From positions 3,722,501 through 3,786,500 of the forward strand of contig OY987226.1 in NCBI GenBank assembly GCA_963920705.1: a stretch of 64,000 nucleotides of DNA, given 5' to 3'. The position numbers were made by a program, and so were the translations under genes. This stretch comes from Odiellus spinosus. Taxonomy: Eukaryota; Arthropoda; Arachnida; Opiliones; Phalangiidae. Under the pieces are notes generated by a model, which saw nothing but the letters and a program-made list of their open reading frames with translations, searched no databases and had not been told where the DNA came from. This document shows, piece after piece, positions 2,254 to 58,438 of this stretch. Positions within the stretch are counted from its first letter, which is position 1. Every line of letters begins with the position of its first letter.

Positions 2254-2260
2254 ATAGAGG

Positions 2261-2678
2261 CAGAGGTATATAATAACCCCCTTCGTGGGGAAGTATGAAA
2301 GCCCCTATACTACCAATGCTAAAAACCACGAACAACAAGAGCCCGCTGCTGACTATCTAGGCCACTAGCTCGCGCTGGACTTCTCAATGTCGCTACTCTA
2401 GTAAATGGTCTTTGTATAAACAAGACGGCTCGATTTGTGTTTAGAACTTCCTGTCTCGGGAGTCAGGCTGTCTGTTAAAATGGAGTAGAAGGTTGACTTC
2501 AGCTCGCGAGTTCCGGAAGTGTGCGTAGGGAAAATTTAGTGAGGTTCAAAATGGTGTAACTATTTTTTGGGAGTAAAGCGGCGTGTCGATCCGCCGCGAT
2601 TTACGCCGGGCACTTGTTGTTCGTCGATTTTGCCTACCTTTCATACTTCCCCCCGAAGGGGGTTATTATATACCTCTG
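2261..2678. mobile_element. MITE family C, copy 1, 7-bp TSD
   Basis: A 418-bp element with terminal inverted repeats of about 40 bp beginning CAGAGGTATATAATAACCCC; the end includes a CCTTCG/CGAAGG hairpin. It is flanked by the exact 7-bp duplication ATAGAGG (2254-2260 and 2679-2685). Copies 2 (30716) and 3 (43842) lie in the opposite internal orientation and share almost the whole length. The minus-strand open frame at 2634-2933 crosses the right boundary and is not a gene. Confidence 0.88.
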
Positions 2679-2987
2679 ATAGAGGTGAATTTGCGGGAGA
2701 CTAGGAAAAAGTAAATAACCCTGTTCATCTTGTAAAGGAAATCGCTTACGTTTTCCCGATACAGTCATGTTCTGCCAGACAAGTACTGTTGTCAATAGGC
2801 AAACTCTGTCGTTATCTTCTCCCCCGTACTGACAAGGGATACTTAAAAAAAAGGTTTTAAAGATATATCGATCGCCACTCGAGTTAGTTTTCAGCATGGT
2901 GAAAACTTTGGATGGCTTTGATTCTGGGGTCAACCGAACCCCGTTACGATTGACCTAATGGCTAAACCACCTTTTTAAAAAGATATA

Positions 2988-4000
2988 GACTACGGTTACA
3001 TTGGGCTCTGAACGTCGTCGTAAGGGAACGTCGACGCTCATTTTTTCCATGTAAACGGACGAACGTCGACGTTCGAGGAGATACGTCGACTTAACGAAAA
3101 CTACCTCGAACCGTCGATTTAAGGACTTACGTCGACGTTCGAGGTGGCATGTAACCCGTGAAAGTAGTTGTTCGCCGCATAGTAGAATTTTTCTTACTAT
3201 ATAAATGCTACTATTTTTTTGATATTGCATTTTATTTTCTGAACTACTTTATTCTCAAGCGTAACAACGATTTTTTTAACATATTTAAATTATTGAACTA
3301 AGTAGCCACCTACTGACAAATTCATTAATAGCAGAGGTTTGATTTTCAAAATTTAAAATAAATTAACTGATATTATTTAAGATAAGCGTATTTAATTTAG
3401 TACATACAATTAATATTATACTATATTATAAATACTATATTATATTAATATTTATAATAAAAATCAGAGGCAAGCAGTTATACCGAAATAATATACCCGA
3501 TTTAATTTTAAAGATCCCGATTTAATTTTAAAGATCCCGATTTAATTTTAAAGATCCCGATTTAATTTTAAAGATCCCGATTTAATTTTAAAGATCCCGA
3601 TTTAATTTTAAAGATCCCGATTTAATTTTAAAGATCCCGATTTAATTTTAAAGATCCCGATTTAATTTTAAAGATCCCGATTTAATTTTAAAGATCCCGA
3701 TTTAATTTTAAAGATCCCGATTTAATTTTAAAGATCCCGATTTAATTTTAAAGATCCCGATTTAATTTTAAAGATCCCGATTTAATTTTAAAGATCCCGA
3801 TTTAATTTTAAAGATCGCCCTCCTCCCTTTTCTAATATTCCATACCAGAAAAACCCCGTTAGGAGGAAATATTCTACAAGGGTACATTCAAACGACGACA
3901 ATGTAACCGCTCCCTTTTTCCGAATGTCGACGTTCACGAGCGTCGACGAAACGTCGTCGTTCACTTACGTCGACGTTCAGAGCCCAATGTAACCGTAGTC
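2988..4000. mobile_element. Inverted-repeat element rich in ACGTCGAC motifs
   Basis: Inverted ends match well: ACTACGGTTACATTGGGCTC plus about 10 bp at the left (from 2989), and the complement ending at 3999. Both subterminal regions are packed with ACGTCGAC-type motifs (3010-3145 and 3925-3982). The interior holds an AT-rich spacer and a 16-copy tandem array. Flanks share only ATA, so the target duplication is uncertain. There is no transposase. Minus-strand frames over 2955-3230 are incidental. Confidence 0.65.
3496..3815. repeat. Perfect 20-bp tandem array, 16 copies
   Basis: Sixteen uninterrupted, identical copies of CCCGATTTAATTTTAAAGAT lie inside the inverted-repeat element at 2988-4000. 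Identity of all copies points to recent expansion or gene-conversion-like homogenisation. Confidence 0.97.
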
Positions 4001-4094
4001 ATAGAGCATATTCTATACAATTTTGGACCGTCTCTAGACTCTCTCTCTTTCACTCACTCTTTTCTGGGAATTGAACTTAAAAACAAGGGTCAGT

Positions 4095-4573
4095 AAAATC
4101 CACCAACCCTAGAATACAGTTGGAAGGTTTACATTTAACAGCTCCAAGGAAAAGCCCAGAGTTATTACAAAAGCAGACGACAAAATTAACCCCATGTATT
4201 GTAAAGTTAATGAGTCTGGGGGTCGTCAATAAAACCCAGTCTGGGTTTGTACGTAAATAGCAGCCTTCGGTAATGCTAAATAAGCAGCGGGATTTGGATC
4301 CCAATAATCGACTTGATTTAAAAAACTAACCTAAGCCTTTGTTGATCATTTGAAAGTTGATAATTGAACAAAACCTATTATCTTTCACTAGGACATTATA
4401 CTTAATCATTTTAGTACAGTAAACGTCTTTAAACTCAATTTGCGAGACGTAAATCGATTAAAAGTAGTTATCAGCTTTGTTAGGTAAGCTTTCAGTGTTC
4501 TTGAGTGCTTCCATACGTTCTTGGTAAGAAAATCATGTCTTGTTTCTTAACATTGCGAGGGTTGGTGGATTTT
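4095..4573. mobile_element. Candidate element with 16-bp perfect inverted ends
   Basis: AAAATCCACCAACCCT at 4095-4110 is exactly complementary to 4558-4573. The 479-bp interval has no coding potential beyond a 75-codon minus frame at 4077-4304 that I do not recognise. No target duplication is evident and there is no second copy in the window, so the mobile-element reading is tentative. Confidence 0.4.
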
Positions 4574-4904
4574 TCGACTCTTGATGTTTTGGCCACTAGG
4601 GGCACTTCGATCGAAGATTGGAGAATATGTTTTTAAAAGGAACAGCGAGGAAACGTAGATAACATCTTAAGATTTTTCTTCTTCTTATTCTTATTAAAGT
4701 GAGGCTGTCACCTATTTTTTAGTTTTATCTTAATATAGGGAGTCTGCAAGGGAGACATTGATACGTCAGAGGTTTCTATCTCTCACCTCGGTGTCATCCC
4801 CTTAGTGAGGGAGTTACAGTATTCGCCCTTACAAGCGCTCCCCCAGTAAGGGGGTTCCATGACGTCAGGCTTTCTTTCCCCCTTGGCTCTTTGCTGTTTC
4901 CTTA
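4574..4904. other. No gene seen
   Basis: Includes a run of ACGTCA-like motifs and CCCC-rich patches at 4760-4875, but no open frame or repeat match. Confidence 0.5.
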
Positions 4905-5205
4905 TTAAAACGACATATTCTAAATTGTATATCTCTGAATTGACGCGTTCTTAATAAACCTCAAAATGATAAATGACGTAGTTTATTTCTGGAACGTAAT
5001 TAACGATAATTTTCGTACGAAAGGTAGTTCATTTTCTGGATAAAGTACTTATCACTCGTTTCAGAACGCGTGAGAATTAACTGTAGGTTCTACAATAGCG
5101 AAATCACTCGACCTTAGTGATGACGTAGTATTGCGGGAAAATATTATTTTAAAATTTAAAATCTATATTTTTACTGTCGCTGTAATTATTTTTATGGCAT
5201 ATGTA
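4905..5205. repeat. Dispersed repeat family L, copy 1
   Basis: Co-linear and diverged relative of 43066-43355. Shared blocks include CATATTCTAAATT, TTGACGCGTTCTTA, ACGCGTGAGAAT, AATGACGTA then ATATTGCG, and GCTGTAATT. A short piece of the same family occurs near 52060-52110. There is no coding frame, and ends and class are unresolved. Confidence 0.65.
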
Positions 5206-5488
5206 TATATATTTTGAATCGTTTTTTAACGATCTTTCCGAAAATGCTACTCAATTTGCATTTGGAGTTCATGAACAGCCTCACTTTTAACTTGAAGAAT
5301 TGTATACGTTCCTCTCATCTTGGAATATAAAAAGCAAGGTTTCGCTTCAGGGACTTTTGATTTCTGAGTTTCTCATTTTTATTTATTTTTTCAACAGTTA
5401 TATTTACGTTTCAATACAACTATATACTTTGTAAAGTTTTTTTTTTTTGGAAACAAAAAAAAAAAAAAGTTTTTGTATATAGTGGAAT

Positions 5489-5526
5489 CATGGACTCTAA
5501 ATCTATATATAGATTTAGAGTCCATG
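5489..5526. repeat. 38-bp palindrome, copy 2
   Basis: A perfect palindrome beginning CATGGACTCTAAATC. It differs from the copy at 594-629 mainly by two extra bases at the centre (CTATATATAG instead of CTATAG). The outer flanks differ from copy 1, so this is a dispersed unit and not a segmental duplication. Confidence 0.7.
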
Positions 5527-5648
5527 GTTCAGGGCTATATAATATTCATTGAAATGTATAGGCGCTATATAGCACCGGTAGATGGCGTCATTTTAAATAT
5601 GATTAATTATCTAGGCTAGATTACGATATTAAACTAAATAAAGATGCT

Positions 5649-5832
5649 TATGGACTAATTAGAACATGGGGAGTTCAGAAAAAATACTTAAAAAACTCTA
5701 CGACCAGGAGAAATGTAGGAAAAACGTATTTGAAATTTTCAAATTCTCAAAAATACGTTTTTTTCGCACTTCTGCTGCTTTTGATTTTTAAGAGTATTTT
5801 TTCTGAGCTTCCCAGGTCCTAATTAGTCCATA
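5649..5832. mobile_element. Short foldback MITE, 184 bp
   Basis: The left arm from TATGGACTAATTAG (5649) and the right arm ending CTAATTAGTCCATA (5832) are complementary over about 45 bp with a few mismatches, including the shared block TCAGAAAAAATACT. Between them AAAACGTATTTGAAA and ATACGTTTTTTTCG form a second inverted pair. No target duplication is clear. Confidence 0.6.
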
Positions 5833-5984
5833 TCCATTGTTGTTTAGAGGGGGTCTGAATACCATAATCCCCCCCCTTAGCCCTTCAAAAAATATGGACT
5901 TTATAGATAATTTTTATTAATTAATTTGAGAAATATGAGAAAAAACCGACATAATTAAGTTTGCTGTGGAACTCAGCGACCAGA

Positions 5985-6485
5985 AAGGTTTGTTCCCATT
6001 TCGCCCAAATATTTCGCCCAAAATTATCTATTCCCATTTCGCCCAATCCTACTTCACCCAAACGTATTATCATTTGGCCCAAAATTATCGATTCCCAATT
6101 CGCCCAAAGCAAAATTTCCTTGTCCCAATTCGCCCAATCCCACTTCGCCCAATCGTTTTATCAGTTAGTAAAGAATTATCTATTCCCATTTCGCTCAACC
6201 TAAAATTCCTTTTCCCGTTTCGCCTAAAATTGTTAGGTTGTGTTAGGTTAGGTTAGGTTAGGTAGAAATAATTAAACAGGACGAAGGAACCGATCAAGAG
6301 GATTTTGTTCGCATATGCGAAATAGGATTGGGCCTAATAAATTGGGCTGATTGGGAATTGGGCCTAATAAATTGGGCTGATTGGGAATTGGGCCAGTTGG
6401 GATTGGGTCAGTTAGGATTGGGCCAATTGAGTTTTGGGCGAAATGGGAATTGGGCCAAATGTTTTGGGCGAATCGGGGTAGAACC
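5985..6485. repeat. Inverted TTCGCCCAAT minisatellite around a TTAGG core
   Basis: Left half (about 5995-6230) is a degenerate tandem of TTCGCCCAA(T/A) motifs. The right half (about 6325-6475) is the same motif in reverse complement (ATTGGGCGAA, ATTGGGAATTGGGCC). Between them lies GTTAGGTTGTG and (TTAGG)3-4 at 6233-6262. Several overlapping open frames on both strands here arise because the motif lacks stops. They are not genes. Confidence 0.75.
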
Positions 6486-7039
6486 ACAAGAAAGAATTAG
6501 GCCGTATTCTGGCTTATAATCATAGATTATCCATTTGTACCTATCTTCTATCACGATATTACGCGCTACTGCGAATGCTCGCGTTTACAGGAATCTTATT
6601 TCAATGGACGCAACTAAATAACAACGAAAATTGTAAAACAATGGTTTTAAACGTGCTTTTAATCTTATAGAGATGAACAGTAAAACACGAACTTCAAATT
6701 TTAAAATCAGATAAGCGTATCTAGATCTAAAACGTGAAACTTTTTTGATGTTTTGGTTGAGGATTATCTGTCAAGAAAGCATTAATATAACGGAAACATT
6801 ATAGTATATCTATATATAAGAGCATATAATGCTATTAGTTATATGTAAGTTTGAATAACCTGTTAGAGTGGGGTCTTAAAAGAGTTATGACACTTTAATC
6901 ATCTTGCGTCATCTTTTAAAGTTTTAAGTACTTTTTCTTATTTATGGGCCATTTGGAATATACCTGAATTAATGGTATCTTTTTTGAGACCGGCTCGGTG
7001 AGCTTTATTAAAGAGGTACCAGATTTCCTATATTTCATA
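6486..7039. other. No gene or repeat recognised
   Basis: AT-rich sequence without a long open frame or match to other parts of the window. Confidence 0.5.
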
Positions 7040-7345
7040 TATTTTGAATACATTCCTATCAATTAATTTTTTTAATTATTTATTTTTCTATTATTTCACA
7101 TTAGTATTATTTCTCCTATATTTTACCATAATTTTAGTATTATTTCTTCTATATTTTACTATAATTATGGTATTATTTTTCCTATATTTTCCTATAATTT
7201 TGTTATTTCTCATATATTTTCCTATCACTTTAGTTTTATTTCTCCTATATTTCCCTCTCACATTATTTCTATAATTTACTATAATTTTACTATAAATTAG
7301 AGTTATTTCACCTTTTTTTACTATAAGTTTACTATAAATTAGTTA
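7040..7345. repeat. Pyrimidine-rich TTTCCTATATTTT tract
   Basis: Degenerate tandem of ATTATTTCTCCTATATTTTACTATAA-like units, directly left of a family H element whose own ends are made of very similar TTTCCTATATTTCC motifs. The 76-codon frame at 7044-7274 is low-complexity Phe/Leu/Tyr sequence produced by this tract. Confidence 0.65.
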
Positions 7346-7356
7346 TTTCTCCTGCT

Positions 7357-7816
7357 CAGGGTGACCACTTTTCCTATATTTCCTATTTTTTCCTATATTT
7401 TCACCTCCTTCCTATTTTCTCCTATAATTTAATGTAATTTCCTATAATCTCCTATATTTCTACTCAAAATCTCTAGTTAAGGGTAAAGTTCTAAATCATA
7501 CTGTCAGCTGTGGCTGTATAAGATTATTTTAGCTTAACTGTACATTTTCCAGTTAAAATACTCTGTAAAATTCCATACTATTTAATCAATTGGATCATAT
7601 TAATACCATGTTTAAACCGGTGGCGAGAGTTGTGACGCGATAATAAACATGGTTCCTACTTTTAATTATTTTCCTATTTTATCATATATTTTACACTTAT
7701 TTCTTCCTATTTTATCCTATATTTTACATAAAATTCTTCCTATGTTTTCCTATATTTCGCAAAGAGATATCCTATATTTCCTATATATGATTTTCAAATT
7801 TTCAGTGGTCACCCTG
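7357..7816. mobile_element. MITE family H, copy 1, 6-bp TSD
   Basis: A 460-bp element with ends CAGGGTGACCACT and AGTGGTCACCCTG, and CCTATATTTCCTA-type repeats just inside each end. An exact 6-bp duplication, CCTGCT, flanks it (7351-7356 and 7817-7822). Copy 2 at 36121-36580 is also 460 bp and over 90% similar by eye. The ends look hAT-like, but hAT elements make 8-bp duplications; IS3EU and Dada have been described with about 6 bp. Superfamily unassigned. Confidence 0.87.
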
Positions 7817-7822
7817 CCTGCT

Positions 7823-8210
7823 TTATTCCAATATTTAATTAGCATAAAGCCGGTCCTTATATAAATTCAAATAATATTAGTGACAAAACGACTATGTTTC
7901 AAAGATTCCTTTCCATCATGTATCTAGATGAAGCGTAGAACATAAATTTCCTTAGAATTTCCCCGGAGGCCTGGCGCGAACATTTTGTTTACGTGATGGG
8001 CAATCTCCAGCCAGAATCTGGTTATGAATGGGAGAGTGCTGGAGCCCGGGACCACCCTCGTTTTCAAGACCTCCCATCTTGAAACAATGTATTTATCTCC
8101 GTTTTTAAAATATATATAGACATATCACCCTTTTATCAAAATCGAGACAAATTGTGAAGGGAATTTAAAGGGTAACACTCATTGTAATATATAGATTCAA
8201 AGCGTGTGTA
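7823..8210. other. No gene recognised; small GC-richer patch
   Basis: A GC-richer patch at about 7960-8095 stands out, but no long open frame or splice-bounded exon can be defended. Confidence 0.45.
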
Positions 8211-10879: not shown

Positions 10880-11563
10880 CATAAGGCCAAAATAGTTAGG
10901 GCATGGAAAAGGGGTATATATAGCTTTCGATAACCTTTATTCACCGAGCGAGTAACCGAGAAGAGTTGGGGAAAACCACCCCTTCTCAACGTCTAGACGT
11001 TTATCGTAACCCTAGGCATTCGGTAACTGCACCACAAAGACCCGTAGAGGGAGGAGATGACTGGAGTGGAAGGTTGATGTGGACTATATTAGCGAGGGAC
11101 GCCTCGCTAATATGGCCCGCTGAGATCGGACACTAGAGGTTGGACCTTGGTGTGAGGATGGTCGGAGGTGATTATAACAGTGGGAGACGTCCCATTGCGT
11201 ATAATCGCCTTCAACTGTCCAGCATCGAGGTTTGACCGTAAAGTGGATGGTGGCATGCGATAATATACAATTGGAGACGTCCTGTTGTATATAATTGCAC
11301 GACACCTGAAACTCATTGTGGCAGCCACGCTTAAAGGAGGTAATTCCCGTTAAACGGAATTGAACGATAAGCTGGTATGATAATGTCTCTAGACTTTTGG
11401 CTCCACGAGCTAGGTCACGTGATTTCCGGTTACACAGGATATCCGCTTACACAGGAAGTGACACACACACACACACAGACACACACACAGACACACACAC
11501 ACAGACACGATCAGTGTAAAACCTCCCCCTGAACTAAAGTTCAGTCGGGGAGGTAAAAAAATA
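10880..11563 (-). mobile_element. Inverted-arm element, left copy with insert
   Basis: Reverse-complement partner of 13942-14249. Matching blocks are CATAAGGCCAAAATAG, GTAACCGAGAAGAGTTGGGG, CGTCTAGACG, GGAGATGACTGGAGTGGAAG, ACAGGATATCCGCTTACACA, an (AC)n tract and the hairpin at 11522-11553 (stem CCTCCCC / GGGGAGG and CTGAACT / AGTTCAG). Compared with the right arm, this copy has 348 bp of extra sequence at 11085-11432. The two copies may be the arms of one 3.4-kb foldback element or two separate insertions in opposite orientation. Confidence 0.8.
11085..11432. other. Structured insert with three GACGYC-capped hairpins
   Basis: Absent from the partner arm. It contains a perfect 12-bp stem, ATATTAGCGAGG / CCTCGCTAATAT, with loop GACG (11086-11113). 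Two further long stems have the identical apex GGAGACGTCC or GGGAGACGTCCC (11168-11209 and 11258-11298), with mismatches largely of the G-U type. A fourth hairpin, AATTCC-GTT / AAC-GGAATT, lies at about 11342-11361. Two overlapping frames cross it on the minus strand (11084-11328), but they follow from the symmetric sequence and are not convincing. Function unknown; a folded RNA or cruciform-prone DNA insert is possible. Confidence 0.6.
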
Positions 11564-13941
11564 TACGAATTCCGAGTTCTACTTTGAAGTTTAAAACTTT
11601 AGTATAAACTAATGGTCCTCATTTAAATAATGAGGATAGTCAGGAGAGAAAATTAAACTCTCGAGTTTACAAGAAGAATTTATTTTTTCTTTTTATTTAC
11701 AGATCTTTCAATGAACCGATCCGTCGATGTAAGACATCGAAAAGTGAGTTCATATTTTCTTTCATTGTAAAGTTCTGGGAAGATTTAAGACTTACAAAAC
11801 TACGATTTTGCCAGCGGGGAAAAAATATTTCGTATTACATGTTTCGATGAGATAGTTTATAATTTGAACCATTGAAAACCGCCCAAATTAATTGGAAGCG
11901 GATCCTAAATTGTTTGAGTCTCTGGGCTCGCAACCTCCACAGGCTTCTCTATGCGAAAACTATCAATAGGTGACTCCCTCTATAATTCCTCCAAGGTTTT
12001 ATCTAGGATGGGATTTCTTATTATCGTTGCATAATAATCATTATCGATTTATTTTGATGAGATTCACTCGAGCCTTTATTGATTAAAACGGCCCTACTAT
12101 TTTGCAGAAATTCTTTATTGTAAATCAATGCTGCAAACCTGGTCCAACTTTGAATTTTCAAAAATTTTACTAGTTCCCCCATATCTTTCCCAGATGAGCT
12201 CGAATTATCCAAGTTCTAGAGAGAGACCCATTAATGAAATAGACAAAGAATCTTTTACAGGAACGCAGCCATTCTAGGTTGAATTTTAGGCCTAATATAC
12301 CAGTAAAAAAATTTACAAACAAATATTAAAATAGAAATAAATTTAAAACTTACCTGGAAAATAGGCTTAGCTGAATTCACGTAGATCCTGAATTTCTTCG
12401 CATTGAAAGGTCAGCGACCAATAAGGAAAGGCCAGTCGTTAAGGCGAGATCTCCATGATTCTTCCAATAACATTCGATTGGTCGCTGACCCTTTAATTTG
12501 AAGAAATTCAGGGTCTACTTGAATTCAGCTAAGCCTATTTGGTGGGTAAGTAATTTTAACTAAAAATTAAATAATAGAAAAGAAAACGTAATTTGTTACT
12601 ATTTTTTTTAAGTTTCTCATTAGCTAGTAATTTTCCATCGCCTTACAACAAAATATTCTAAAAATATCTGAGAGTAGAAATATCTGATATTTTCCCGATT
12701 TTTAAAACATGTCCCGTCGCGTCTCCTTGTATATCTTTAAAAGCATCGATACATAGACGTGATCGAAAAAATGTTGGAATATATGATTTCCAAAGGGATT
12801 CGAGCTCAAGGACTCGGATGAAGATATTTCCATGTAAATGTCGAAGAAACTTAGGGTGTCGGGGGAACACACAACTGGCGCAAGAATAAAATCCCTTTAG
12901 AGTCGAGGTTTGGAGCCTCGAGGTTTTGGCGTGTGCTCTTACTCGAGTGTCTACCACATAACCCCCAACTTCCACTACGATGGAGAGCGTCACTCTTGAA
13001 TATTGAATCGATTCGCTCGCCTCCTACGACGGAGGTTACAAAAATATCCAGAGAAACAAGAACCCGTTCGACTCAACAAGGTTCTCGGGGTTCCCTCTCT
13101 TCCACTTGGATCCAAAGAGTGAGAGTTCAAGATTTCGCTTCCGTTTTCCGTTTTCGAGACCAACGGGGTTAGGGGTCTGACACTCGTCGCAAATGCGTAC
13201 ATATTTACAAGATGGTTGAAAGAAATTTTAATAATTTTCATTTACGAGAACGATTCTGTTAAGAAAAGTTCAAACAAGATTTATTTGTGGGTAAAACAAT
13301 CATATTGAATACAATTTTGGAATCAGGATTACAAGTAAAACTTTCAAAGACTCGAAGAAAGAATTTCGTAGTAAAGAGTTTAAAAAATTACAGAAAATAA
13401 TCTCCATGTTTAAATACGAAGTTTCGAGCTGCCAATTTACATAAATGTATCGAATAATTTCATATTATGCCTTGATCACCTTGTTGAAATGTCCCAAAAT
13501 CGTCACGTGATAAACGTAACGAATCACGTAACTAGATGCTCTACAAAAAAGTTTACTTCCGGATTACACGGGCGCGAATCTGAAGAGTCAGGAGCTTTTT
13601 AATTTTGGTTCTTAAGCCTTGGTTTATGTAGACTAATAATGGAAACTGAAAAATCTAAAAGGTATTTAAATTATTATACATTCAGATTAAATTATTTAAC
13701 CCCGACGCTAGAGGAAAAAAACATCGTTATACTCTATGATTTTGATACCGTTACCAAGCAAAGGCTTCGCGTGTTCTTTGTTAACTGACAAGTATGTACG
13801 CGGGATTATGTAATTTTAATCGCATACGGAAATCGCGTAAAAACATTATTTATGATTTCATAAATTTAAACATGGTTCATCGACTAAAGTTCGTCCAAAG
13901 ATACCGACTCTTTTAGGCGCTATTTAATACCAGAAATAATG
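11564..13941. other. Interior between the inverted arms
   Basis: About 2.4 kb of sequence that includes an N-type repeat (12285-12545). Open frames of 111 codons (minus, 12658-12993), 79 codons (plus, 12933-13172) and 83 codons (minus, 12990-13241) overlap one another on opposite strands in a locally GC-richer patch. None shows a motif I recognise, and no transposase signature is visible. Confidence 0.4.
12285..12545. mobile_element. TTAA-family (N type) relative, truncated
   Basis: Shares with the 22364-24003 element the blocks AATAGAAATAAATTTAAAAC, AAAATAGGCTTAGC, AGCGACCAAT and, on the other side, ATTGGTCGCT, GCTAAGCCTATTT and GTAAGTAATTTTAA. The outer TTAA/AGGG ends are missing, so this is an internally deleted, end-truncated copy. 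The two arms form a long inverted repeat around 12450. Confidence 0.7.
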
Positions 13942-14249
13942 TATTTTTTACCTCCCCGACTGAACTTTAGTTCAGGGGGAGGTTTTACACTGGTCGTATC
14001 TGTGTGTGTGTGTGTGTCACTTCCTGTGTAAGCGGATATCCTGTGTCCACATCAACCTTCCACTCCAGTCATCTCCTCCCTCTACGGGTCTTTGTGGTGC
14101 AGTTACCGAATGCCTAGGGTTACGATAAACGTCTAGACGTTGAGAAGGGGGGGTTTTCCCCAACTCTTCTCGGTTACTCGCTCGGTGAATAAAGGTTAGC
14201 GAAAGCTATATATACCCCTTTTCCATGCCCTAACTATTTTGGCCTTATG
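13942..14249 (+). mobile_element. Inverted-arm element, right copy (short form)
   Basis: The 308-bp short version of the arm at 10880-11563, in opposite orientation. It starts with the hairpin 13951-13982, followed by a (GT)n tract, and ends GGCCAAAATAG-complement then TTATG. The 13-mer ATGTATTTTTTAC occurs at both edges (13939-13951 and 14247-14259), as a target duplication or a recombination junction would leave. The outer edge abuts the first unit of the 17-bp array. Confidence 0.75.
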
Positions 14250-17200
14250 TATTTTTTACTATATTTTAATAAAGAGTATAATAATTTCCTTTAAGCTAGG
14301 TTCTCTGGCTACTGAAGATAGGAATGAAGGACAGGTAATGTCAGGGGTGTAGCTATTACTATGGCCTTCCCCATCTTGTTAGCGCCTTAAATTAGGTAGG
14401 ACAGAGGATGTAGCTATTCTATTATATTAAATTGTGATTTTTATTATTTTTAATTATTGACAATGTATTTTTTACTAATATATATACTAATGTATATTTT
14501 ACTTCTCATTTGTGGACGCGTTTCATTTGTCGCCGCGTTTCATTTGTCGTTGCGTTTCATCTGTCGCCGCGTTTCATTTGTCGCCGCGTTTCATTTGTCG
14601 CCGCGTTTCATTTGTCGCCGCGTTTCATTTGTCGCCGCGTTTCATTTGTGATTTTTATTATTTTTAATTATTGGCAATGTATTTTTTACTATATTTTAAT
14701 AAAGAGTATAATAATTTCCTTTAAGCTCGGTTCTCTGGCTACTGAAGATAGGAATGAAAGACAGGTAATGTCAGGGGTGTAGCTATTACTATGGGCTTCC
14801 CCATCTTGTTAGCGCCTTAAATTAGGTAGGACAGAAGATGTAGCTATTCTATTATATTAAATTGTGATTTTTATTATTTTTAATTATTGACAATGTATTT
14901 TTTACTAATATATATATACTAATGTATATTTTACTTCTCATTTGTGGACGCGTTTTACTTTCGCCGCGATTCATTTGTCGCCGTGTTTCATTTGTCGTTG
15001 CGTTTCATCTGTCGCCGCGTTTCATTTGTCGCCGCGTTTCATTTGTCGCCGCGTATCATTTGTCGCCGCGTTTCATTTGTCGCCGCGTTTCATCTGTCGC
15101 CGCGTTTCATTTGTGGTCGCGTTTCATCTGTCGCCGCGTTTCATCTGTCGCCGCGTTTCATTTGTCGTCGCGTTTCATTTGTGATTTTTATTATTTTTAA
15201 TTATTGGCAATGTATTTTTTACTAATATATATACTAATGTATATTTTACTTCTCATTTCTGGACGCGTTTTACTTTCGCCGCGTTTCATTTGTCGCCGCG
15301 TTTCATTTGTCGTTGCGTTTCATCTGTCGCCGCGTTTCATTTGTCGCCGCGTTTCATTTGTGATTTTTATTATTTTTAATTATTGGCAATGTATTTTTTA
15401 CTATATTTTAATAAAGAGTATAGTAATTTCCTTTAAGCTCGGTTCTCTGGCTACTGAAGATAGGAATGAAAGACAGGTAATGTCAGGGGTGTAGCTATTA
15501 CTATGGGCTTCCCCATCTTGTTAGCGCCTTAAATTAGGTAGGACAGAAGATGTAGCTATTCTATTATATTAAATTGTGATTTTTATTAATTTTAATTATT
15601 GACAATGTATTTTTTACTAATATATACTAATGTATATTTTACTTCTATTTGTGGACGCGTTTTACTTTCGCCGCGATTCATTTGTCGCCGCGTTTCATTT
15701 GTCGTTGCGTTTCATCTGTCGCCGCGTTTCATTTGTCGCCGCGTTTCATTTGTCGCCGCGTATCATTTGTCGCCGCGTTTCATTTGTCGCCGCGTTTCAT
15801 CTGTCGCCGCGTTTCATTTGTCGTCGCGTTTCATCTGTCGCCGCGTTTCATCTGTCGCCGCGTTACATTTGTCGTCGCGTTTCATTTGTCGTCGCGTTTC
15901 ATTTGTCGCCGCGTTTCATTTGTCGTCGCGTTTCATTTGTCGCCGAGTTTCATTTCTCGTCGCGTTTCATTTGTCGCCGCGTTTCATCTGTCGCCGCGTT
16001 TCATTTGTGATTTTTATTATTTTTAATTATTGGCAATGTATTTTTTACTATATTTTAATAAAGAGTATAATAATTTCCTTTAAGCTAGGTTCTCTGGCTA
16101 CTAAAGATAGGAAGACAGGTAATGTCAGGGGTGTAGCTATTACTATGGGCTTCCCCATCTTGTTAGCGCCTTAAATTAGGTAGGACAGAAGATGTAGCTA
16201 TTCTATTATATAAAATTGTGATTTTTATTACTTTTAATTATTGACAATTTGTGGACGCGTTTTACTTTCGCCGCGATTCATTTGTCGTCGCGTTTCATTT
16301 GTCGTCGCGTTTCATTTGTCGTCGCGTTTCATTTGTCGCCGCGTTTCATTTGTCGTTGCGTTTCATTTGTCGTCGCGTTTCATTTCTCGTCGCGTTTCAT
16401 TTGTCGCCGCGTTTCATTTGTGATTTTTATTATTTTTAATTATTGGCAATGTATTTTTTTCTATATTTTAATAAAGAGTATAATAATTTCCTTTAAGCTA
16501 GGTTCTCTGGCTACTGAAGATAGGAATGAAAGACTGGTAATGTCAGGGGTGTAGCTATACTATGGGCTTCCCCATCTTGTTAGCGCCTTAAATTAGGTAG
16601 GACAGAAGATGTAGCTATTCTATTATATTAAATTGTGATTTTTATTATTTTTAATTATTGACAATGTATTTTTTACTAATATATATACTAATGTATATTT
16701 TACTTCTCATTTGTGGACGCGTTTTACTTTCGCAACGTTTCATTTGTCGCCGCGTTTCATCTGTCGCCGCGTTTCATTTGTCGTCGCGTTTCATCTGTCG
16801 CTGCGTTACATTTGTCGCCGCGTTTCATTTGTCGTTGCGTTTCATCTGTCGCCGCGTTTCATTTGTCGCCGCGTTTCATTTGTGATTTTTATTATTTTTA
16901 ATTATTGGCAATGTATTTTTTACTATATTTTAATAAAGAGTATAATAATTTCCTTTAAGCTCGGTTCTCTGGCTACTGAAGATAGGAATGAAAGACAGGT
17001 AATGTCAGGGGTGTAGCTATTACTATGGGCTTCCCCATCTTGTTAGCGCCTTAAATTAGGTAGGACAGAAGATGTAGCTATTCTATTATATTAAATTGTG
17101 ATTTTTATTATTTTTAATTATTGACAATGTATTTTTTACTAATAAATATACTAATGTATATTTTACTTCTCATTTGTGGACGCGTTTTACTTTCGCAACG

Positions 17201-19072: not shown

Positions 19073-19095
19073 AGAAGACGGTAACATAAATCGAA

Positions 19096-19564: not shown

Positions 19565-19570
19565 GTAAGT

Positions 19571-28193: not shown

Positions 28194-28483
28194 CAAGAAG
28201 GATTAGATAAGGAGAGGAAATGTGGGAACGGCGCGGCTCGTACTGCGTCGGCCTAAACTCCCACTCTGGGAGAACGGGGGTAGAGACGTTTCGTGGTAAA
28301 TTGTTGTCATGTGGGGAAAACGGATCCTTTATGAGACGCGTAGTAGTCAACGACGCTAGCGACCACGTGACAAGTTTACCTCGAGAATTTCCTATCCCCC
28401 CTTTCCACCCGAGTGGGAGGCTGGCTCTTCTCTCTCTAACTCAACGCAGCCCCACATTTCCTCTCCTTATCTAATCCTTCTTG
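28194..28483. mobile_element. MITE family I, copy 1, 7-bp TSD
   Basis: A 290-bp element with inverted ends CAAGAAGGATTAGATAAGG extended by about 14 bp to CCCCACATTTCC on the other side, and an exact 7-bp duplication ACATAGG (28187-28193 and 28484-28490). GC-rich interior with its own inverted pair CCCACTCTGGGAG / CACCCGAGTGGGAGG. Open frames on both strands here (28129-28350 and 28220-28474) are by-products. Copy 2 is at 49738-50018. Confidence 0.88.
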
Positions 28484-33581: not shown

Positions 33582-33939
33582 CAAAAGTCTATCAATTTAT
33601 TCCATAAAAGTGAACAACAGCCTGTAGCTTAATACTATCAGCAAAGGTCCAGGTTAACGTACTAGCCCATCACTTAAAAATAGACAAAAAGTCATCACCC
33701 CTGTCTTGCTCGAGTGATTTGAACTCTTCCTCGATATTTTGAGTCAAGAGAAAGGTTCGGAATTTAGGCGGGCCGCGCTTGGCTATATTGTCTTCCCTCC
33801 TAACTTAGATATTTCTCCGCAGAGTGGCGCTTCCGATTTCTATATTTACACGTGGCGACTGCGGCCGCTAGAATCAGAATCTGCCGGTACATTTACCCGG
33901 AACTTGTTTACTTTTATGGAATTAAGTGATATACTTCTG
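33582..33939. mobile_element. MITE family B copy, 7-bp TSD (one mismatch)
   Basis: 358 bp; ends CAAAAGTCTATCA and the complement of CAGAAGTATATCAC. Flanks are ATAATAT (33575-33581) and ATATTAT (33940-33946), identical at six of seven bases. The interior holds AGCTTAATACTATCAGCAAA, AAAGTCATCACCCCTGTCTT and GGCGGGCCGCGCTTGGCTAT. The frame at 33739-33948 is incidental. Confidence 0.78.
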
Positions 33940-34815: not shown

Positions 34816-35126
34816 CAGAAGCCGATGAAACCCTCCTTTGAAGTCTACTACTCGAATGTTCCATCTAGCGCTCCTCTCTGTATGGGTAAAATTCCCAATT
34901 TTACGAGTTAGAAGGGGTCCTACTTCATCCCCCCTGTCTACAGAAAATTGGAAATTCTCTCTCTCCACAAACGACGATGTTTTTTGGACGAACTCCGAGG
35001 CTGCTAGAGATATTCGCTCGACGTTAGGAGGCGTACGGATCGCGCCTTTTGAGAATAACCCATACAGAGAGGGGTAGACAAGACCAGGGAGTAATAGACT
35101 TCAAAGGAGGGTTTCATCGGCTTCTG
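34816..35126. mobile_element. MITE family A, copy 1, 7-bp TSD
   Basis: 311 bp; ends CAGAAGCCGATGAAACCCTC with about 18 further matching bases. Exact duplication ATAATAT (34809-34815 and 35127-35133). The interior is in the opposite orientation to copies 2, 4 and 5. The plus frame at 34838-35077 lies wholly inside and is not a gene. Confidence 0.9.
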
Positions 35127-38464: not shown

Positions 38465-38911
38465 AGACAGGGGTGATATCATTTTTGGCTAGTTTTAAGT
38501 GATGGACTATGACCAGTAGCCGATGAAATCCTCCTTTGAAGTATATTACTCCCGGGTCTTGTCAACCCCTCTCTGTATGGGTTAGTTTCAAAAAGCGCGA
38601 TTCGTACGCCTCCTAACGGTAGATATTTTCGGAGCGGGAGTTTGTCGAGCGAATATCTCTAGCAGCCTCGGAGTTCGTCAAAAAAACGTCGTCGTTTGTG
38701 GAGAGAGAATTTCCAATTTTCCGTAGACAGGGGGGTATGAAGTAGGACCCCTCCGATCTCGTAAAATTGTGAATTTTACCCATACAGATCGAGGAGCGCT
38801 ATATCGAACATTATAGTAGTAGACTTCAAAGGTGGGTTTCATCGGCTTCTGCTCATAGTATTAAGCTACAGGGTGTTGTTTACTTTCGTGGGATAAAGTG
38901 ATATACTTTTG
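38465..38911. mobile_element. MITE family B copy, split by an A element
   Basis: Left remnant CAGACAGGGGTGATATC to TGATGGACTATGAC, then family A (38514-38851), then CTCATAGTATTAAGCTACAG and the end ATATACTTTTG at 38911. About 25-30 bp of B that should precede the insertion point is missing on the left side, so a small deletion accompanied or followed the insertion. Confidence 0.72.
38514..38851. mobile_element. MITE family A, copy 2, nested in B
   Basis: 338 bp; left end CAGTAGCCGATGAAATCC (two changes from consensus), right end GTTTCATCGGCTTCTG. The right flank CTCATAG corresponds to the B motif CTGATAG. The matching left duplication is lost. Interior shared with copies 4 and 5 (TTTCGGAGCGGGAG, AACGTCGTCGTTTGTGGAGA). 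Confidence 0.82.
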
Positions 38912-41128: not shown

Positions 41129-41423
41129 CAAAAGTCTAATCACTTTATTATTAAAGTCTATCAGCAAAGGTCCATTTTAAATCGTGAAATCGGTTGGGGC
41201 TGGGAGGGAAAAACAATATAGGAAAGCGCGGCCCGCCTAAATTCCGTCCCTCTCTCCATACTCAAAATATAGAGGAAGAGTCCAAATCACTTGAGCAAGA
41301 CAGGGGTGATGACTTTCTTCGCTATGTTTATGTGATCGACTATGATTTTAAACTGACCTTTTGCTGATAGTACTAAGCTACGGGGCGTTGTTTACTTTTA
41401 TGGAATTAATTCATAGACTTTTG
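41129..41423. mobile_element. MITE family B, shorter copy, 7-bp TSD (one mismatch)
   Basis: 295 bp; ends CAAAAGTCTAATCA and TTCATAGACTTTTG. Flanks CTATCAC (41122-41128) and CTATCAT (41424-41430) match at six of seven. It shows an internal deletion relative to the 55573 copy but keeps ATATAGGAAAGCGCGGCCCG, AGGGGTGATGACTTTCTTCG and GGGGCGTTGTTTACTTTTAT. Confidence 0.8.
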
Positions 41424-41904: not shown

Positions 41905-42124
41905 CAGAAGCCGATGAAACCCTCCTTTGAAGTCTACTTCTCTAATGTTCCATATAGCGCTCCTCTCTGTATGGGTAAAATTCCCAATTTTACAAGATCG
42001 GAGGGATCCTACTTCATACCGTTAGGAGGCGTACGAATCGCGCTTTTTGAAACTAACCCATACAGAGAGGGGTAGACAAGACCAGGGAGTAATAGACTTC
42101 AAAGGAGGGTTTCATCGGCTTCTG
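41905..42124. mobile_element. MITE family A, copy 3, internally deleted
   Basis: 220 bp with intact ends CAGAAGCCGATGAAACCCTC and complement, exact duplication CTTTTAC (41898-41904 and 42125-42131). About 115 bp of the interior is missing relative to 44804-45140, so the ends are apparently sufficient for mobility or the deletion is later. Confidence 0.9.
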
Positions 42125-44803: not shown

Positions 44804-45140
44804 CAGAAGCCGATGAAACCCTCCTTTGAAGTCTATTACTCCCGGGTCTTGCCTACCCCTCTCTGTATGGGTTAGTTTCAAAAAGCGTGATTCGTACGCC
44901 TCCTAACGGTAGATATTTTCGGAGCGGGAGTTCGTCGAGCGAATATATCTAGCAGCCTCGGAGTTCGTCAAAAAAACGTCGTCGTTTGTGGAGAGAGAGA
45001 ATTTCCAATTTTCCGTAGACAGGGGGTATGAAGTAGGACCCCTCCGATCTCGTAAAATTGGGAATTTTACCCATACAGAGAGGAGCGCTATATGGAACAT
45101 TAGAGTAGTAGACTTCAAAGGAGGGTTTCATCGGCTTCTG
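44804..45140. mobile_element. MITE family A, copy 4, 7-bp TSD
   Basis: 337 bp, ends CAGAAGCCGATGAAACCCTC and complement, exact duplication GTAGTGG (44797-44803 and 45141-45147). Minus-strand frames inside (44903-45118 and 44949-45131) recur at the equivalent place in copy 5 but are disrupted differently and are not genes. Confidence 0.93.
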
Positions 45141-45967: not shown

Positions 45968-46120
45968 ATACTATCAGTTGGGGGATGACAATGTAGCCAA
46001 GCGTGGCCCGCCTAAATTCAGTCCCTCTCTCCTGACTCTAAATACCGAGGAAGAGTCCAAATCACTCTAGCCAGACAGGGGTGATGACTTTGTCTATTTT
46101 TAAGTGATGGCCTATGACCT
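45968..46120. mobile_element. MITE family B remnant
   Basis: TTAATACTATCAG, then GTAGCCAAGCGTGGCCCGCC, AGGAAGAGTCCAAATCACTC and TTAAGTGATGGCCTATGACC. Both outer ends are missing. Confidence 0.7.
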
Positions 46121-46653: not shown

Positions 46654-46991
46654 CAGAAGCCGATGAAACCCTCCTTTGAAGTCTATTACTCCCGGGTCTT
46701 GTTTACCCCTCTCTGTATGGGTTAGTTTCAAAAAGCGCGATTCGTACGCCTCCTAACGGTAGATATTTTCGGAGCGGGAGTTCGTCGAGCGAATATCTCT
46801 AGCAGCCTCGGAGTTCGACAAAAAAACGTCGTCGTTTGTGGAGAAAGAGAATTTCCAATTTTGCGTAGACAGGGGGGTATGAAGTAGGACCCCTCCGATC
46901 TCGTAAAATTGTGAATTTTACCCATACAGAGAGGCGCGCTATATGGAACATTAGAGTAGTAGACTTCAAAGGAGGGTTTCATCGGCTTCTG
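46654..46991. mobile_element. MITE family A, copy 5, 7-bp TSD
   Basis: 338 bp, ends CAGAAGCCGATGAAACCCTC and complement, exact duplication GTGCTAT (46647-46653 and 46992-46998). Nearly identical to copy 4. Confidence 0.93.
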
Positions 46992-49737: not shown

Positions 49738-50018
49738 CAAGGAGGATCAGAGAAGGAGAGGAAATGTGGGGACGGCGCGGTTCCTACTGCGTCGGCCTAA
49801 ACTCCCACTCTGGGAGAACGGGGGTAGAGACGTTTCGTGGTAAAATGTTGTCGCGTGGGTAAAACGAATCCTTTATGAGACGCGCTAGCTAGCGACCACG
49901 TGACAACAGTTTACCTCGAGAATTTCCTATCCCCCCTTTCCACCCGAGTGGGAGGTTGGCTCTTCTCTCTCTAACTCAACGCAGCCCCACATTTCCTCTC
50001 CTTCTCTGATCCTATTTG
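49738..50018. mobile_element. MITE family I, copy 2, 7-bp TSD
   Basis: 281 bp, ends CAAGGAGGATCAGAGAAGG and the complement of CAAATAGGATCAGAGAAGG, exact duplication CCCAAAT (49731-49737 and 50019-50025). Interior nearly identical to 28194-28483 with a small deletion. Confidence 0.9.
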
Positions 50019-53107: not shown

Positions 53108-54495
53108 TATTTTATGATTTTCAAACGTATTTTATGATTTTCCAACGTATTTTATGATTTTCCAACGTATTTTATGATTTTCCAAAGTATTTTATGATTT
53201 TCCAACGTATTTTATGATTTTCCAACGTATTTAATGATTTTCCATCGTATTTAATGATTTTCCATCGTATTTAATGATTTTCCATCGTATTTTATGATTT
53301 TCCAACGTATTTTATGATTTTCCAACGTATTTTATGATTTTCCATCGTATTTTATGATTTTCCAACGTATTTTATGATTTTCCAACGTATTTTATGATTT
53401 TCCAACGTATTTTATGATTTTCCAACGTATTTTATGATTTTCCAACGTATTTTATGATTTTCCAACGTATTTTATGATTTTCCAACGTATTTTATGATTT
53501 TCCAACGTATTTTATGATTTTCCAACGTATTTTATGATTTTCCAACGTATTTTATGATTTTCCAACGTATTTTATGATTTTCCAACGTATTTTATGATTT
53601 TCCAACGTATTTTATGATTTTCCAACGTATTTTATGATTTTCCAACGTATTTTATGATTTTCCAACGTATTTTATGATTTTCCAACGTATTTTATGATTT
53701 TCCAACGTATTTTATGATTTTCCAACGTATTTTATGATTTTCCAAACGTATTTTAAGATTTTCCAACGTATTTTAAGATTTTCCAACGTATTTTAAGATT
53801 TTCCAACGTATTTTAAGATTTTCCAACGTATTTTAAGATTTTCCAACGTATTTTAAGATTTTCCAACGTATTTTAAGATTTTCCAACGTATTTTAAGATT
53901 TTCCAACGTATTTTAAGATTTTCCAACGTATTTTAAGATTTTCCAACGTATTTTAAGATTTTCCAACGTATTTTAAGATTTTCCAACGTATTTTAAGATT
54001 TTCCAACGTATTTTAAGATTTTCCAACGTATTTTAAGATTTTCCAACGTATTTTAAGATTTTCCAACGTATTTTAAGATTTTCCAACGTATTTTAAGATT
54101 TTCCAACGTATTTTAAGATTTTCCAACGTATTTTAAGATTTTCCAACGTATTTTAAGATTTTCCAACGTATTTTAAGATTTTCCAACGTATTTTAAGATT
54201 TTCCAACGTATTTTAAGATTTTCCAACGTATTTTAAGATTTTCCAACGTATTTTAAGCTTTTCCAACGTATTTTAAGCTTTTCCAACGTATTTTAAGCTT
54301 TTCCAACGTATTTTAAGCTTTTCCAACGTATTTTAAGCTTTTCCAACGTTTGTTAAGATTTTCCAACGTTTGTTAAGATTTTCCAACGTTTGTTAAGATT
54401 TTCCAACGTATTTTATGATTTTCCAACGTATTTTATGATTTTCCAACGTATTTTATGATTTTCCAACGTATTTTATGATTTTCCAACGTATTTTC
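53108..54495. repeat. 20-bp satellite, about 69 copies, in variant blocks
   Basis: The basic unit is TCCAACGTATTTTATGATTT. Variants are grouped: ...TTATGATTT to about 53740, ...TTAAGATTT to about 54250, ...TTAAGCTTT to about 54345, a GTTTGTTAAGA form at about 54346-54400, then the first form again. A one-base insertion at about 53744 marks the first switch. Confidence 0.97.
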
Positions 54496-55565: not shown

Positions 55566-55572
55566 TTATTAA

Positions 55573-56271
55573 CAAAAATTTATCCCATAGAAGTAAACAA
55601 CGCCCCATAGCTTAATACTATCAAGAATCCATAAGAATATGGGAGGGCCGCGATTCAATAACCATCCTCCCAAACTTTGTATTAAAAGTTCGTCCGCTTC
55701 GAATCGATTTTTCAAGTAAATCGCTCCTGACATCTATTATTAACCCGCGCCACTAACGACCTTGACATAATATTTGGGGTAATAAAAATGGAGCCGACCG
55801 AAAAAGATCTAAGCGTACAAATGTTGCGAAAATTGCGGACGAACTTTTGTTACAAAGTTTGGGAGGATGGTACCAGAGGCTAAAGCAATGCTCCCATATT
55901 CTTATGGAACCTGAATGGATTCTTGATACTATCATCAAAGGACCAGGTAAAGGTACTAGCCAATCACTTAAAACTACCCAAAAAGTCATCACCCCTGTCT
56001 AGTTCGAGTGATTTGGACTCTTCCTCGATATTTTGAGTCGGGAGAGAGGGACGAAATTAAGGCGGGCCGCGCTTGTCTATATTGCCTTCCCTCGCAACTC
56101 CGAAATTTCTCCGAAGAGTGGGCTTCCTATTTCACTATTTACAACAACTTGCGGACACTAGAGTGTCTCGAATCCTGCAGAATCTGGTGGTACATATACC
56201 CGGACCTTTTGCTAATAGTATTTAGCTACGGGGCGTTGTTTACTTATACGTAATAAAGTGATATACTTTTG
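55573..56271. mobile_element. MITE family B, longest copy, split by D
   Basis: Left end CAAAAATTTATCCCATAG, AACAACGCCCCATAGCTTAA, then family D (55622-55925), then AAAGGACCAGGTAAAGGTAC, AAAAGTCATCACCCCTGTCT, GGCGGGCCGCGCTTGTCTAT and the right end ATATACTTTTG at 56271. Without D it would be about 390 bp. The flanks (TTATTAA / GTTTAAA) give no convincing duplication. Confidence 0.8.
55622..55925. mobile_element. MITE family D, copy 1, nested in B, 7-bp TSD
   Basis: 304 bp; ends CAAGAATCC(ATTCAGGTTCC)ATAAGAATATGG, with the bracketed part missing from the left end, and the full complement at the right. Exact duplication ATACTAT (55615-55621 and 55926-55932). Interior inverted pairs (CATCCTCCCAAACTTTG / CAAAGTTTGGGAGGATG, GTTCGTCCGC / GCGGACGAAC) make the whole element one long hairpin. 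Confidence 0.9.
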
Positions 56272-56278
56272 GTTTAAA

Positions 56279-56849
56279 TATTCGTAAGACTTTTTCTTTA
56301 AGATATAATCAAAAGGCCAATTCTCCACGGACTCCGTACAACTTACAGCGAAGCTTATATAGCTTTTAAACTAATACCCTTCCCCATGTTCTTATAGTTC
56401 TTAGCTGTCATAAGTTTGGGCGTTACTGTCTATTTCTAATCAGATTACAACGCGACGGACGTAATTCCCTCGCCCTCCCTCGCTCACCATAAATCGAATT
56501 TATCTTCCGAGTTTTGAGTCGAAACACGATATAACTGTGTCCCAAGGAAACCCGTTTCATACACGTAATTGTGCCTTTTTATAAAAAAATTCTTGTAAGA
56601 TTACATATATATATATTCGCTGAACTCCTTAGCCTTATCCGTATCATATCCATTACTCTTGGTGGTCTGGATAAGGTTCAACGATAATATGTGGGATGTT
56701 TCAACTAGTAGCGTTTTACTGGGGGATCTGTGTGTTTAGATAAAGATTAATGAAGCCAAAACAAAATTCGAGATTTTCTAACTTGACAAAGTTTCTTTAA
56801 AAATGGCAGATCATTTTGATGAAGTTCTAATACGTAATCGTACGTAACG
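56279..56849. other. No gene or repeat recognised
   Basis: AT-rich intronic sequence. Confidence 0.5.
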
Positions 56850-57385
56850 TCATGCTTTAAGTAATTGTATTTAATCGCATACTTAAGTAATTGTCTATAA
56901 TGCTTAATGGCATGCTTAAGTAATTATCTATAATGCTTAATGACATGCTTAAGTAATTGTCTATAATGCTTAATGGCATGCTTAAGTAATTGTCTATAAT
57001 GCTTAATGGCATGCTTAAGTAATTATCTATATTACTTAATGTCATGCGAAGTAATTATCTATAATACTTAATGACACGCTTAATTATCTTCAATGCTTAA
57101 TGACACGCTTAAAGGCCTAGGATTTCTTCTGCCTGTCCCCTGCCTGTTTCACTGGAAGTGGGCTCACCTTCTGAGCTTCCCCTTGGGTAGCAAGGCAAGA
57201 GAAAGCCTGGATGGTGAGTTTGTTTCCAGGGTGACGGGCAGAAGTAATCCTAGGCCTTTAAGTAATTATCTACAATGCTTAATGTCATATTTAAGTAATT
57301 ATCTATAGTTCTTAATGCCATGCTTAAGTAATTATCTATAGTTCATAATGGCATACTTAAGTATGTGTCTGTAGTACTTATACAG
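56850..57385. repeat. 33-bp tandem array split by a MITE
   Basis: Units of CATGCTTAAGTAATTGTCTA followed by TAATGCTTAATGG. Each unit contains CTTAAG, so every unit offers a TTAA site. The array is interrupted at 57113-57257. An 11-residue periodic minus frame (56857-57045) is a by-product of 33 being a multiple of three. Confidence 0.92.
57113..57257. mobile_element. 145-bp TTAA MITE inside the 33-bp array
   Basis: Ends AGGCCTAGGATT and AATCCTAGGCCT, with similarity continuing to about 24 bp (CTTCTGCCYGTC). Flanked by TTAA (57109-57112 and 57258-57261) that belongs to the array unit GCTTAAGTAATT. The interior is conspicuously GC-rich (CTGTCCCCTGCCTG, CTGAGCTTCCCCTTGGG) compared with everything around it. 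Confidence 0.85.
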
Positions 57386-58122
57386 CACTCGAAGAAAGTA
57401 TTTATTATATCATAAAGAACACTTGAAGAAAAGTACGCAAAGCCCAATGTTTCTTGTAGTATTGCCCATATTTTCGCAATGCCTCGTCTCGTTGTAAAAG
57501 GTCCCAAGGCTCGCGGCTCAGGTTTTTAGTTATCTTACCAACTTGCGCACGTACACCCGCCTTAAATACATTTTTTTCCCACACCGTATATACCATATAG
57601 TCGAAGCATTTTATTATATAATATATCAGACTTATATATAGCTTTTTATAACGGTGGTGGTGCGCTTACAATCTTGACTTCTTCTACGTTTTACCAAGTT
57701 TTACGAGCTCTGAACCAAAAGAGCCCCCAGATGTTGTTGAAGATTTGCGGTTTACTTGCCGAGTTAGATGGAAGGAGAAAAAAGTCCTATAGAGGGAGGA
57801 TATTTTAACCATACACGTAAGGCTACATTATTGAACGATTTGTAGTAGTAGTGGTAGTAGTCATAGTAGTAGAAATATTATTAAAATCATGCGGAAGAAT
57901 TATAATATTAAATGGTTTTATAAAGTAACATATACAATAATGTAGAAACCGATAAAATAGCCGTTCATATTGAAAATTTTGCGTTTTTTCAAGGCTGGTT
58001 CAAAGTATGGCATTTTCTATACATTTGCCAACCTTGAAACTAACAAAAATAGCCGTTAAATAGAACCCGTTTCTACGGAAGATGTTAGCATTTTTCAAGG
58101 TTGGGACATAGTCACACTTCAT
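57386..58122. other. No gene; TAG/GTA microsatellite and local repeat
   Basis: A (GTA)n-like run lies at 57841-57871. TTTTTCAAGGCTGGTTC (57985) and TTTTTCAAGGTTGGGAC (58091) repeat with ATAGCCGTT on their sides. Minus frame 57405-57596 is unrecognised. Confidence 0.5.
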
Positions 58123-58438
58123 CAAGAATCCATTCAGGTTCCATAAGAATATGGGAGGGCCGCGATTCAATAACCATCCTCCCAAACTTTGTAGCAAAAG
58201 TTCGTCCGCTTCGAATCGATTTTTCAAGTAAATCGCTCCTGACAGCTATTATTAACCCGCGCCACTAACGACCTTGACATAATATTTTAGGCAATAAAAA
58301 TGGAGCCGACCGAAAAAAGATCTAAGCGTACAAATGTTACGAAAATTGCGGACGAACTTTCGTTACAAAGTTTGGGAGGATGGTACCAGAGGCTAAACCT
58401 ATGCTCCCATATTCTTATGGAACCTGAATGGATTCTTG
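58123..58438. mobile_element. MITE family D, copy 2, full length
   Basis: 316 bp; intact ends CAAGAATCCATTCAGGTTCC and complement, about 35 bp each. Nearly identical to copy 1 in the interior. No duplication at the flanks (ACTTCAT / GTATTAG), so the insertion site was altered later. The minus frame 58000-58227 crosses the boundary and is not a gene. Confidence 0.85.

Follow-up and report, generated by a model that had tools for sequence, protein, structure and literature searches.

MITE families with 7-bp target-site duplications in Odiellus spinosus and their probable mobilization by P-superfamily transposases

Five MITE families in the window

The window analysed here is a stretch of 64,000 nucleotides (positions 3,722,501-3,786,500 of contig 2) from the 443-Mb genome of Odiellus spinosus, and it carries copies of five families of miniature inverted-repeat transposable elements (MITEs), named A, B, C, D and I. 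A first-pass annotation of the window had counted five copies of A, seven of B, three of C and two each of D and I, and these numbers were borne out, with several of the B copies interrupted. It had also described 5'-CA...TG-3' ends for all families and target-site duplications (TSDs) of 7 bp. Both ends were checked in 14 copies (five A, three C, two D, two I and two B), and the remaining five B copies, which were interrupted or truncated, lay outside this check. All 14 copies started with CA and ended with TG, and nine of them, from families A, C, D and I, were flanked by an exact 7-bp TSD; these were the same nine duplications that had been named earlier (A1, A3, A4, A5, C1, C2, D1, I1 and I2). 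Two B copies showed a match at 6 of 7 positions, again as first described, and no TSD was found at A2 (38514), C3 (43842) or D2 (58123).

The A copies were located at 34816..35126 (A1, minus strand, 311 bp, TSD ATAATAT), 38514..38851 (A2, plus strand, left end CAGTAGCC), 41905..42124 (A3, minus strand, 220 bp with an internal deletion, TSD CTTTTAC), 44804..45140 (A4, plus strand, 337 bp, TSD GTAGTGG) and 46654..46991 (A5, plus strand, 338 bp, TSD GTGCTAT). C1 lay on the plus strand at 2261..2678 (418 bp, with a 41-bp terminal inverted repeat and the TSD ATAGAGG), and C2 (30716..31133, TSD CTGATAG) and C3 (43842..44258, adjoining B sequence) lay on the minus strand. The D and I copies were all on the plus strand: D1 at 55622..55925 (304 bp, TSD ATACTAT), D2 at 58123..58438 (316 bp), I1 at 28194..28483 (290 bp, with a perfect 33-bp terminal inverted repeat and the TSD ACATAGG) and I2 at 49738..50018 (281 bp, TSD CCCAAAT). 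The two B copies with both ends were found at 33582..33939 (minus strand, 358 bp, 6 of 7 positions in ATAATAT/ATATTAT) and 41129..41423 (plus strand, 6 of 7 positions in CTATCAC/CTATCAT). The other B elements were split by C2 (30536..31193, plus strand), by A2 (38465..38911, plus strand) and by D1 (55577..56271, minus strand), truncated next to C3 (44263..44573, plus strand) or present as a fragment (45982..46120, plus strand).

The five families differed in their terminal sequences (CAGAAGCC, CAGAGGTA, CAAGAATC, CAAGAAGG and CAAAAGTC). The terminal inverted repeats were 33-41 bp long in A, B, C and I and 87 bp long in D, and they had little in common beyond CA. Three copies were nested inside B elements, with junctions at 30715/31134 (C2), 38513/38852 (A2) and 55621/55926 (D1). 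The insertion sites of C2 and D1 in B overlapped, 3 bp apart, within TTTGCTGATAGTATTAAGC of the B terminal repeat. The right flank of A2, which had no duplication, started at the same place in B.

Duplication length and target site across the genome

The genome was searched with one query copy per family, which gave 957 candidates for C, 473 for A, 472 for D, 1,157 for I and 1,986 for B, and 40 candidates were scored in each family. Among the 40 scored copies per family, flanks were read for 28 in C, 30 in A, 20 in D, 10 in I and none in B, together with extra copies in the same stretches. Copies of A, C and D were removed if an end was not found within 6 bp, if the identity was below 80% or if the flanks were repeated, and this filter also excluded A3 (because of its internal deletion) and D1 (because of its variant left end) from the window, both with an exact TSD. 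The tested set, 113 copies from families A, C, D and I, comprised the best-scoring copies only, which were therefore the youngest. An exact 7-bp TSD was found in 83 of them (27 of 43 for A, 25 of 34 for C, 19 of 24 for D and 12 of 12 for I), and an exact duplication of 6 or 8 bp was found in none; in one C copy (L026) an 8-bp duplication would fit with one mismatch. As a control for chance, left flanks paired with right flanks from other copies agreed over 7 bp in 50 of 12,656 pairings (0.4%), so that about 0.45 TSDs were expected compared to the 83 observed. Among the 10 I copies with flanks read, L117 and L121 had the same flanks in opposite orientation, and thus family I contributed at most 11 independent sites and the pooled exact sites numbered at most 82. 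The length distribution, which had been proposed as a check in the first-pass annotation, thus came out at 7 bp, which is the true length of the duplication in these four families. For B, the TSD evidence consisted of the two window copies.

The families differed in abundance and age. Exact matches to the terminal 20- or 21-mers, counted on the two strands, numbered 1,935 and 1,914 for D, 1,718 and 1,669 for C and 85 and 88 for I, and the reversed-sequence controls for these three families gave no matches; D and C are thus large families and I is a small one. Twenty genome copies of I tied at the top score with 99% identity to the window copy, which indicates that this family is recent. In contrast, the 39 other scored copies of B were 84-88% identical to the window copy, and the divergence of 12-16% indicates that B is older.

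When the 83 exact sites were pooled (with L117 and L121 representing one site read both ways), the target was a palindrome, T-NN-[NTANTAN]-NN-A, with NTANTAN at its centre, flanked by a T that lies three bases beyond the left end and by an A in the mirrored position. A, C, D and I are all consistent with one kind of transposase that has a single target preference. It had been suggested that one unusual transposase family drives all five families, and the part of this suggestion that concerns a single type of transposase with a 7-bp stagger agrees with these four families, but a single transposase for all five was not supported given that the termini differ. The ends and the target also bring hAT elements to mind. 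hAT termini are often CA...TG, like the ends of the MITEs, and the target site, with a T and an A near its ends, is similar to the one that hAT elements prefer; the MITEs would then be hAT members with an unusual 7-bp stagger. However, hAT transposition gives an 8-bp duplication, and an exact 8-bp duplication was absent from all 113 copies, whereas P elements of the same genome were found to give 7 bp (see below). We consider a hAT origin very unlikely.

P-superfamily elements and their relation to the MITEs

The Pfam model for the N-terminal part of the P-type RNase H domain gave at least 150 matches in the genome (150 of 386 candidates were scored, and all 150 were above the cut-off), in frames of up to 929 aa. 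We read 36 of these loci, which represent 33 places, as 30 stretches of 3.4 kb and six of 8 kb. The ends of the P element were located in three of the six 8-kb loci (L089, L091 and L094), and no element ends were found in the other three (L090, L092 and L093). The L089 element spans 2,206-7,875 (5,670 bp, termini CATAGACTAAG, TSD GTCTGTC), the L091 element spans 2,281-7,723 (5,443 bp, termini CARAGAAAATATACCC, TSD CTCCAAT) and the L094 element spans about 1,641-6,221 (TSD GTTTATA). Their terminal repeats are about 29-42 bp long and do not match one another, and those of L089 and L091 begin with CA. The 856-aa frame of L089 contains THAP, TNP-like_RNaseH_N and TNP-like_GBD in one frame and matched the solved structure of the Drosophila P transposase (6p5a) with an E-value of 5.4e-19. 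The RNaseH_N and GBD domains were also present in L091 and L094, with THAP in an upstream frame in L094, so that all three elements carried the RNase H and GTP-binding domains and two of the three carried THAP.

The L089-type element was found at four independent insertions, with the 7-bp TSDs GTCTGTC, ATATTAT, GATGTAT and GTCTAAG. Together with one insertion each for the L091 type and the L094 type, a 7-bp TSD was present at six of six independent P insertions. A genome query with the first 200 bp of L091 gave 40 scored candidates, of which six were full matches and 34 were diverged, partial matches. Among the latter was a 223-bp MITE (L151, C45:47,442-47,664) with L091-type termini at both ends and the TSD ACTAAAC, and its termini stayed close to those of the L091 element. 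Taken together, the six insertions and L151 showed that 7 bp is the length duplicated by P elements here and that at least one MITE has arisen from them. We then compared the targets: scored with the matrix built from the MITE sites, the six P insertion sites and the L151 site averaged the 91.8th percentile of window 19-mers, a mean that was reached in 1 of 200,000 random draws.

These results support, with good confidence, the model that all five families, A, B, C, D and I, consist of mini-elements that move by cut and paste but are not autonomous, and that their transposases are of the P superfamily (THAP9/P-element-like), act in trans and are encoded at other places in the genome. The TSD length, the CA-starting termini, the target motif and the company that the MITEs keep lead us to infer that P transposases serve A, C, D and I and, on weaker grounds, B. 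By analogy with P elements, the transposase would bind the CA...TG terminal repeats of a MITE, excise the MITE and join it to the palindromic target with a 7-bp stagger, and repair of the gaps would then leave the 7-bp duplication.

Several observations weigh against this model. The first-pass annotation had called for a larger element with the MITE ends and a transposase frame, and no transposase-bearing element with A, B, C, D or I termini was found in the 36 P loci. Compared to these loci, the MITE termini gave only chance-level pieces of 11-15 bases and the MITE sequences as a whole showed no similarity, except for an A end in L094. This end, at 6562, was rejected as part of a long A element, as, apart from its own copy, the sequence past the first 95 bp yielded just an unrelated repeat of about 150 bp. 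An exact TSD was absent in 30 of the 113 genome copies, the L094 element begins with CG rather than CA, and the scan of the L091 frame did not reveal THAP. The five further L091-type copies had flanks identical to those of the first, and thus the six copies represent one insertion. Finally, TA-rich palindromes are favoured by other superfamilies too, so the target test is not specific.

Pairs of exact termini were also inspected for a spacing that would suit an autonomous partner. Among the first 100 listed of the 3,849 D termini, a pair 5.3 kb apart on contig C1 (1899078-1904369) enclosed no scored P match. Two C-family termini lie between them, and this pair is a candidate counter-example within the 150 of 386 P candidates that were scored. 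By eye, no pair among the first 100 listed termini each of C and I enclosed a scored P match.

That no autonomous partner with exact termini was found in the 36 P loci could also mean that a superfamily other than those seen here, possibly an undescribed one, drives all five families, in line with the unusual family that had first been proposed. However, this genome already contains a known superfamily whose insertions show 7-bp duplications at similar sites and which gave rise to at least one MITE, and we regard another superfamily as most improbable. The transposase need not come from an unknown superfamily to be unusual in its stagger, since the P elements found here and, by its published description, Galileo make 7-bp duplications. 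Thus, the driver is very probably of the P-superfamily type, for which 7 bp has a precedent.

A single P transposase with a tolerant recognition of CA...TG ends might move all five families, as the identical TSD length, the pooled target motif and the sites shared in B elements (C2 and D1 3 bp apart, with the right flank of A2 starting there) would suggest. In contrast, the MITE terminal repeats share little beyond CA, the termini of the three P elements also differ from each other and the L091-type MITE closely keeps the termini of its own element. We therefore find a single P transposase unlikely. Because the MITE termini differ, several P-superfamily transposases are likelier than one, and, judging from the sequences, each MITE family probably has its own.

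Galileo, a P-superfamily transposon of Drosophila, is described with a 7-bp TSD and the consensus GTANTAC (PMC4168063, PMC2775673), and in D. willistoni 7 bp is given for most copies and 8 bp for three (PMC4168063). By these published descriptions, Galileo resembles the present system in its TSD length, in a palindromic target close to NTANTAN and in a transposase of the P superfamily with THAP and DDE domains. It differs in its long terminal repeats, compared to about 29-42 bp in the P elements here, 33-41 bp in A, B, C and I and 87 bp in D, and in its flanks, which are AANGT/ACNTT in Galileo compared to the T three bases outside and the opposite A found here. In Anopheles gambiae, several MITE families are reported to derive from P subfamilies and to have termini in common with full-length P elements, as seen here for L151 (PMC1562414). 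According to the same account, the P elements and P-derived MITEs of A. gambiae give 8-bp rather than 7-bp TSDs, and full-length partners are described there, whereas none was identified here for A, B, C, D or I. Canonical P elements and zebrafish Pdre2/THAP9 share with the elements found here the THAP domain, the RNase H domain and the GTP-binding insertion, in agreement with the match of L089 to the solved P transposase, and the termini of Pdre2 are reported to begin with CA (PMC10983969). They are described with 8-bp TSDs (PMC7776569, PMC10983969), in contrast to the 7 bp at all six P insertions here.

The results connect abundant and otherwise anonymous MITEs with the P superfamily through measurements of duplications and target sites instead of through resemblance, and they demonstrate 7-bp staggering by P-type transposons in this genome. 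Whether the stagger is 7 or 8 bp is set physically by the strand-transfer complex, which means that the solved P-element complex can serve as a reference for relatives on either side of this difference. The published sources found, mainly abstracts, contained no account of MITEs that have 7-bp duplications, and their silence is weak evidence that none exists.

The distribution of the elements on contig C1 was uneven. Of the 36 scored P-transposase matches on this contig, 34 lay at 3.13-16.43 Mb, and the same interval held one of the first 100 listed C-family termini and 26 of the first 100 listed D termini. The P-transposase copies seem to reside in chromosome regions other than those that hold the C MITEs. 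Close to P-transposase copies there was also a near-palindrome, about 600 bp long and 89% self-complementary (L063, 180-780, and likewise in L064 and L066).

A convergent second gene in the P elements, and other features of the window

In four of the 8-kb loci, a second gene was found 3' of the transposase on the opposite (minus) strand, at 5902-6567 in L089 (222 aa), 6274-7725 in L090 (484 aa), 5679-7340 in L091 (554 aa) and 5824-6681 in L092 (286 aa). In L091, a single pair of termini with a single TSD encloses both genes. The four proteins were 24-33% identical between families. When a profile of the four was compared to all frames of at least 40 aa in the 36 loci, partial relatives were found opposite the transposase in L078, L080, L083 and L085, and a weak relative was found on the transposase strand in L063 (E 1.3e-4). 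The second protein of L090 gave 65 matches at 53 places in the genome, and a scored P transposase was present within 8 kb at 36 of these places and absent at 17. The orientation at the 36 places was convergent (tail to tail) at 33, divergent at three and tandem at none, and the three divergent places contained the same 42-aa piece at the same spacing. Several copies were near-identical, so the 53 places amount to fewer than 53 independent cases.

Comparison of the opposite-strand protein with the sense-strand C-terminal region of other P families in this genome gave a profile match with an E-value of 2.5e-6 and a probability of 88.8%, from few and divergent sequences. This sense-strand region itself matched THAP9_C weakly, with a best E-value of 0.0025 that was below the cut-off. 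In L063 and L060, the RNase H C-terminal domain contains the motif NQDxLE, and in L089-L092 this motif occurs in later frames that lie on the transposase strand. No convincing match was found between the opposite-strand frames and Pfam, and the second-gene profile matched nothing below an E-value of 0.7 among solved structures. The sequence relationship suggests that the C-terminal domain of the transposase may have become a separate, convergent gene. A wider reading, which we advance tentatively as a serious possibility, is that the genome may hold a large radiation of 7-bp P transposons with the transposase split between two convergent genes, one strand encoding the THAP, RNase H and GTP-binding parts and the other a THAP9_C-like C-terminal domain, and that these transposons drive MITE families with thousands of termini.

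The second convergent gene of many P elements here sets them apart from canonical P elements and Pdre2/THAP9. RAG-like transposons are described with two convergent genes per transposon (PMC7204232), but they belong to a different transposase family and offer an analogy for the gene arrangement only. The sources found, again mainly abstracts and thus weak evidence of absence, held no account of two-gene P elements. A convergent second gene that is alike across several P families provides a route to ask whether P transposition can need a second protein.

The window also contains other features. A stretch of 3,370 bp at 10880-14249 lies between 205-bp inverted repeats that are 99% identical, with the ends CATAAGGCC...GGCCTTATG; it had no flanking duplication of at least 6 bp, and its frames of 120 and 121 aa had no Pfam match. 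A Laminin N-terminal exon is located at 19,093-19,593. At 14506-18167, arrays of a 17-bp unit (TCATTTGTCGCCGCGTT) occur within tandem repeats of 412-462 bp, and further long arrays with 20- and 24-bp units were found at 53108-54494, 59167-60578 and 62795-63694.

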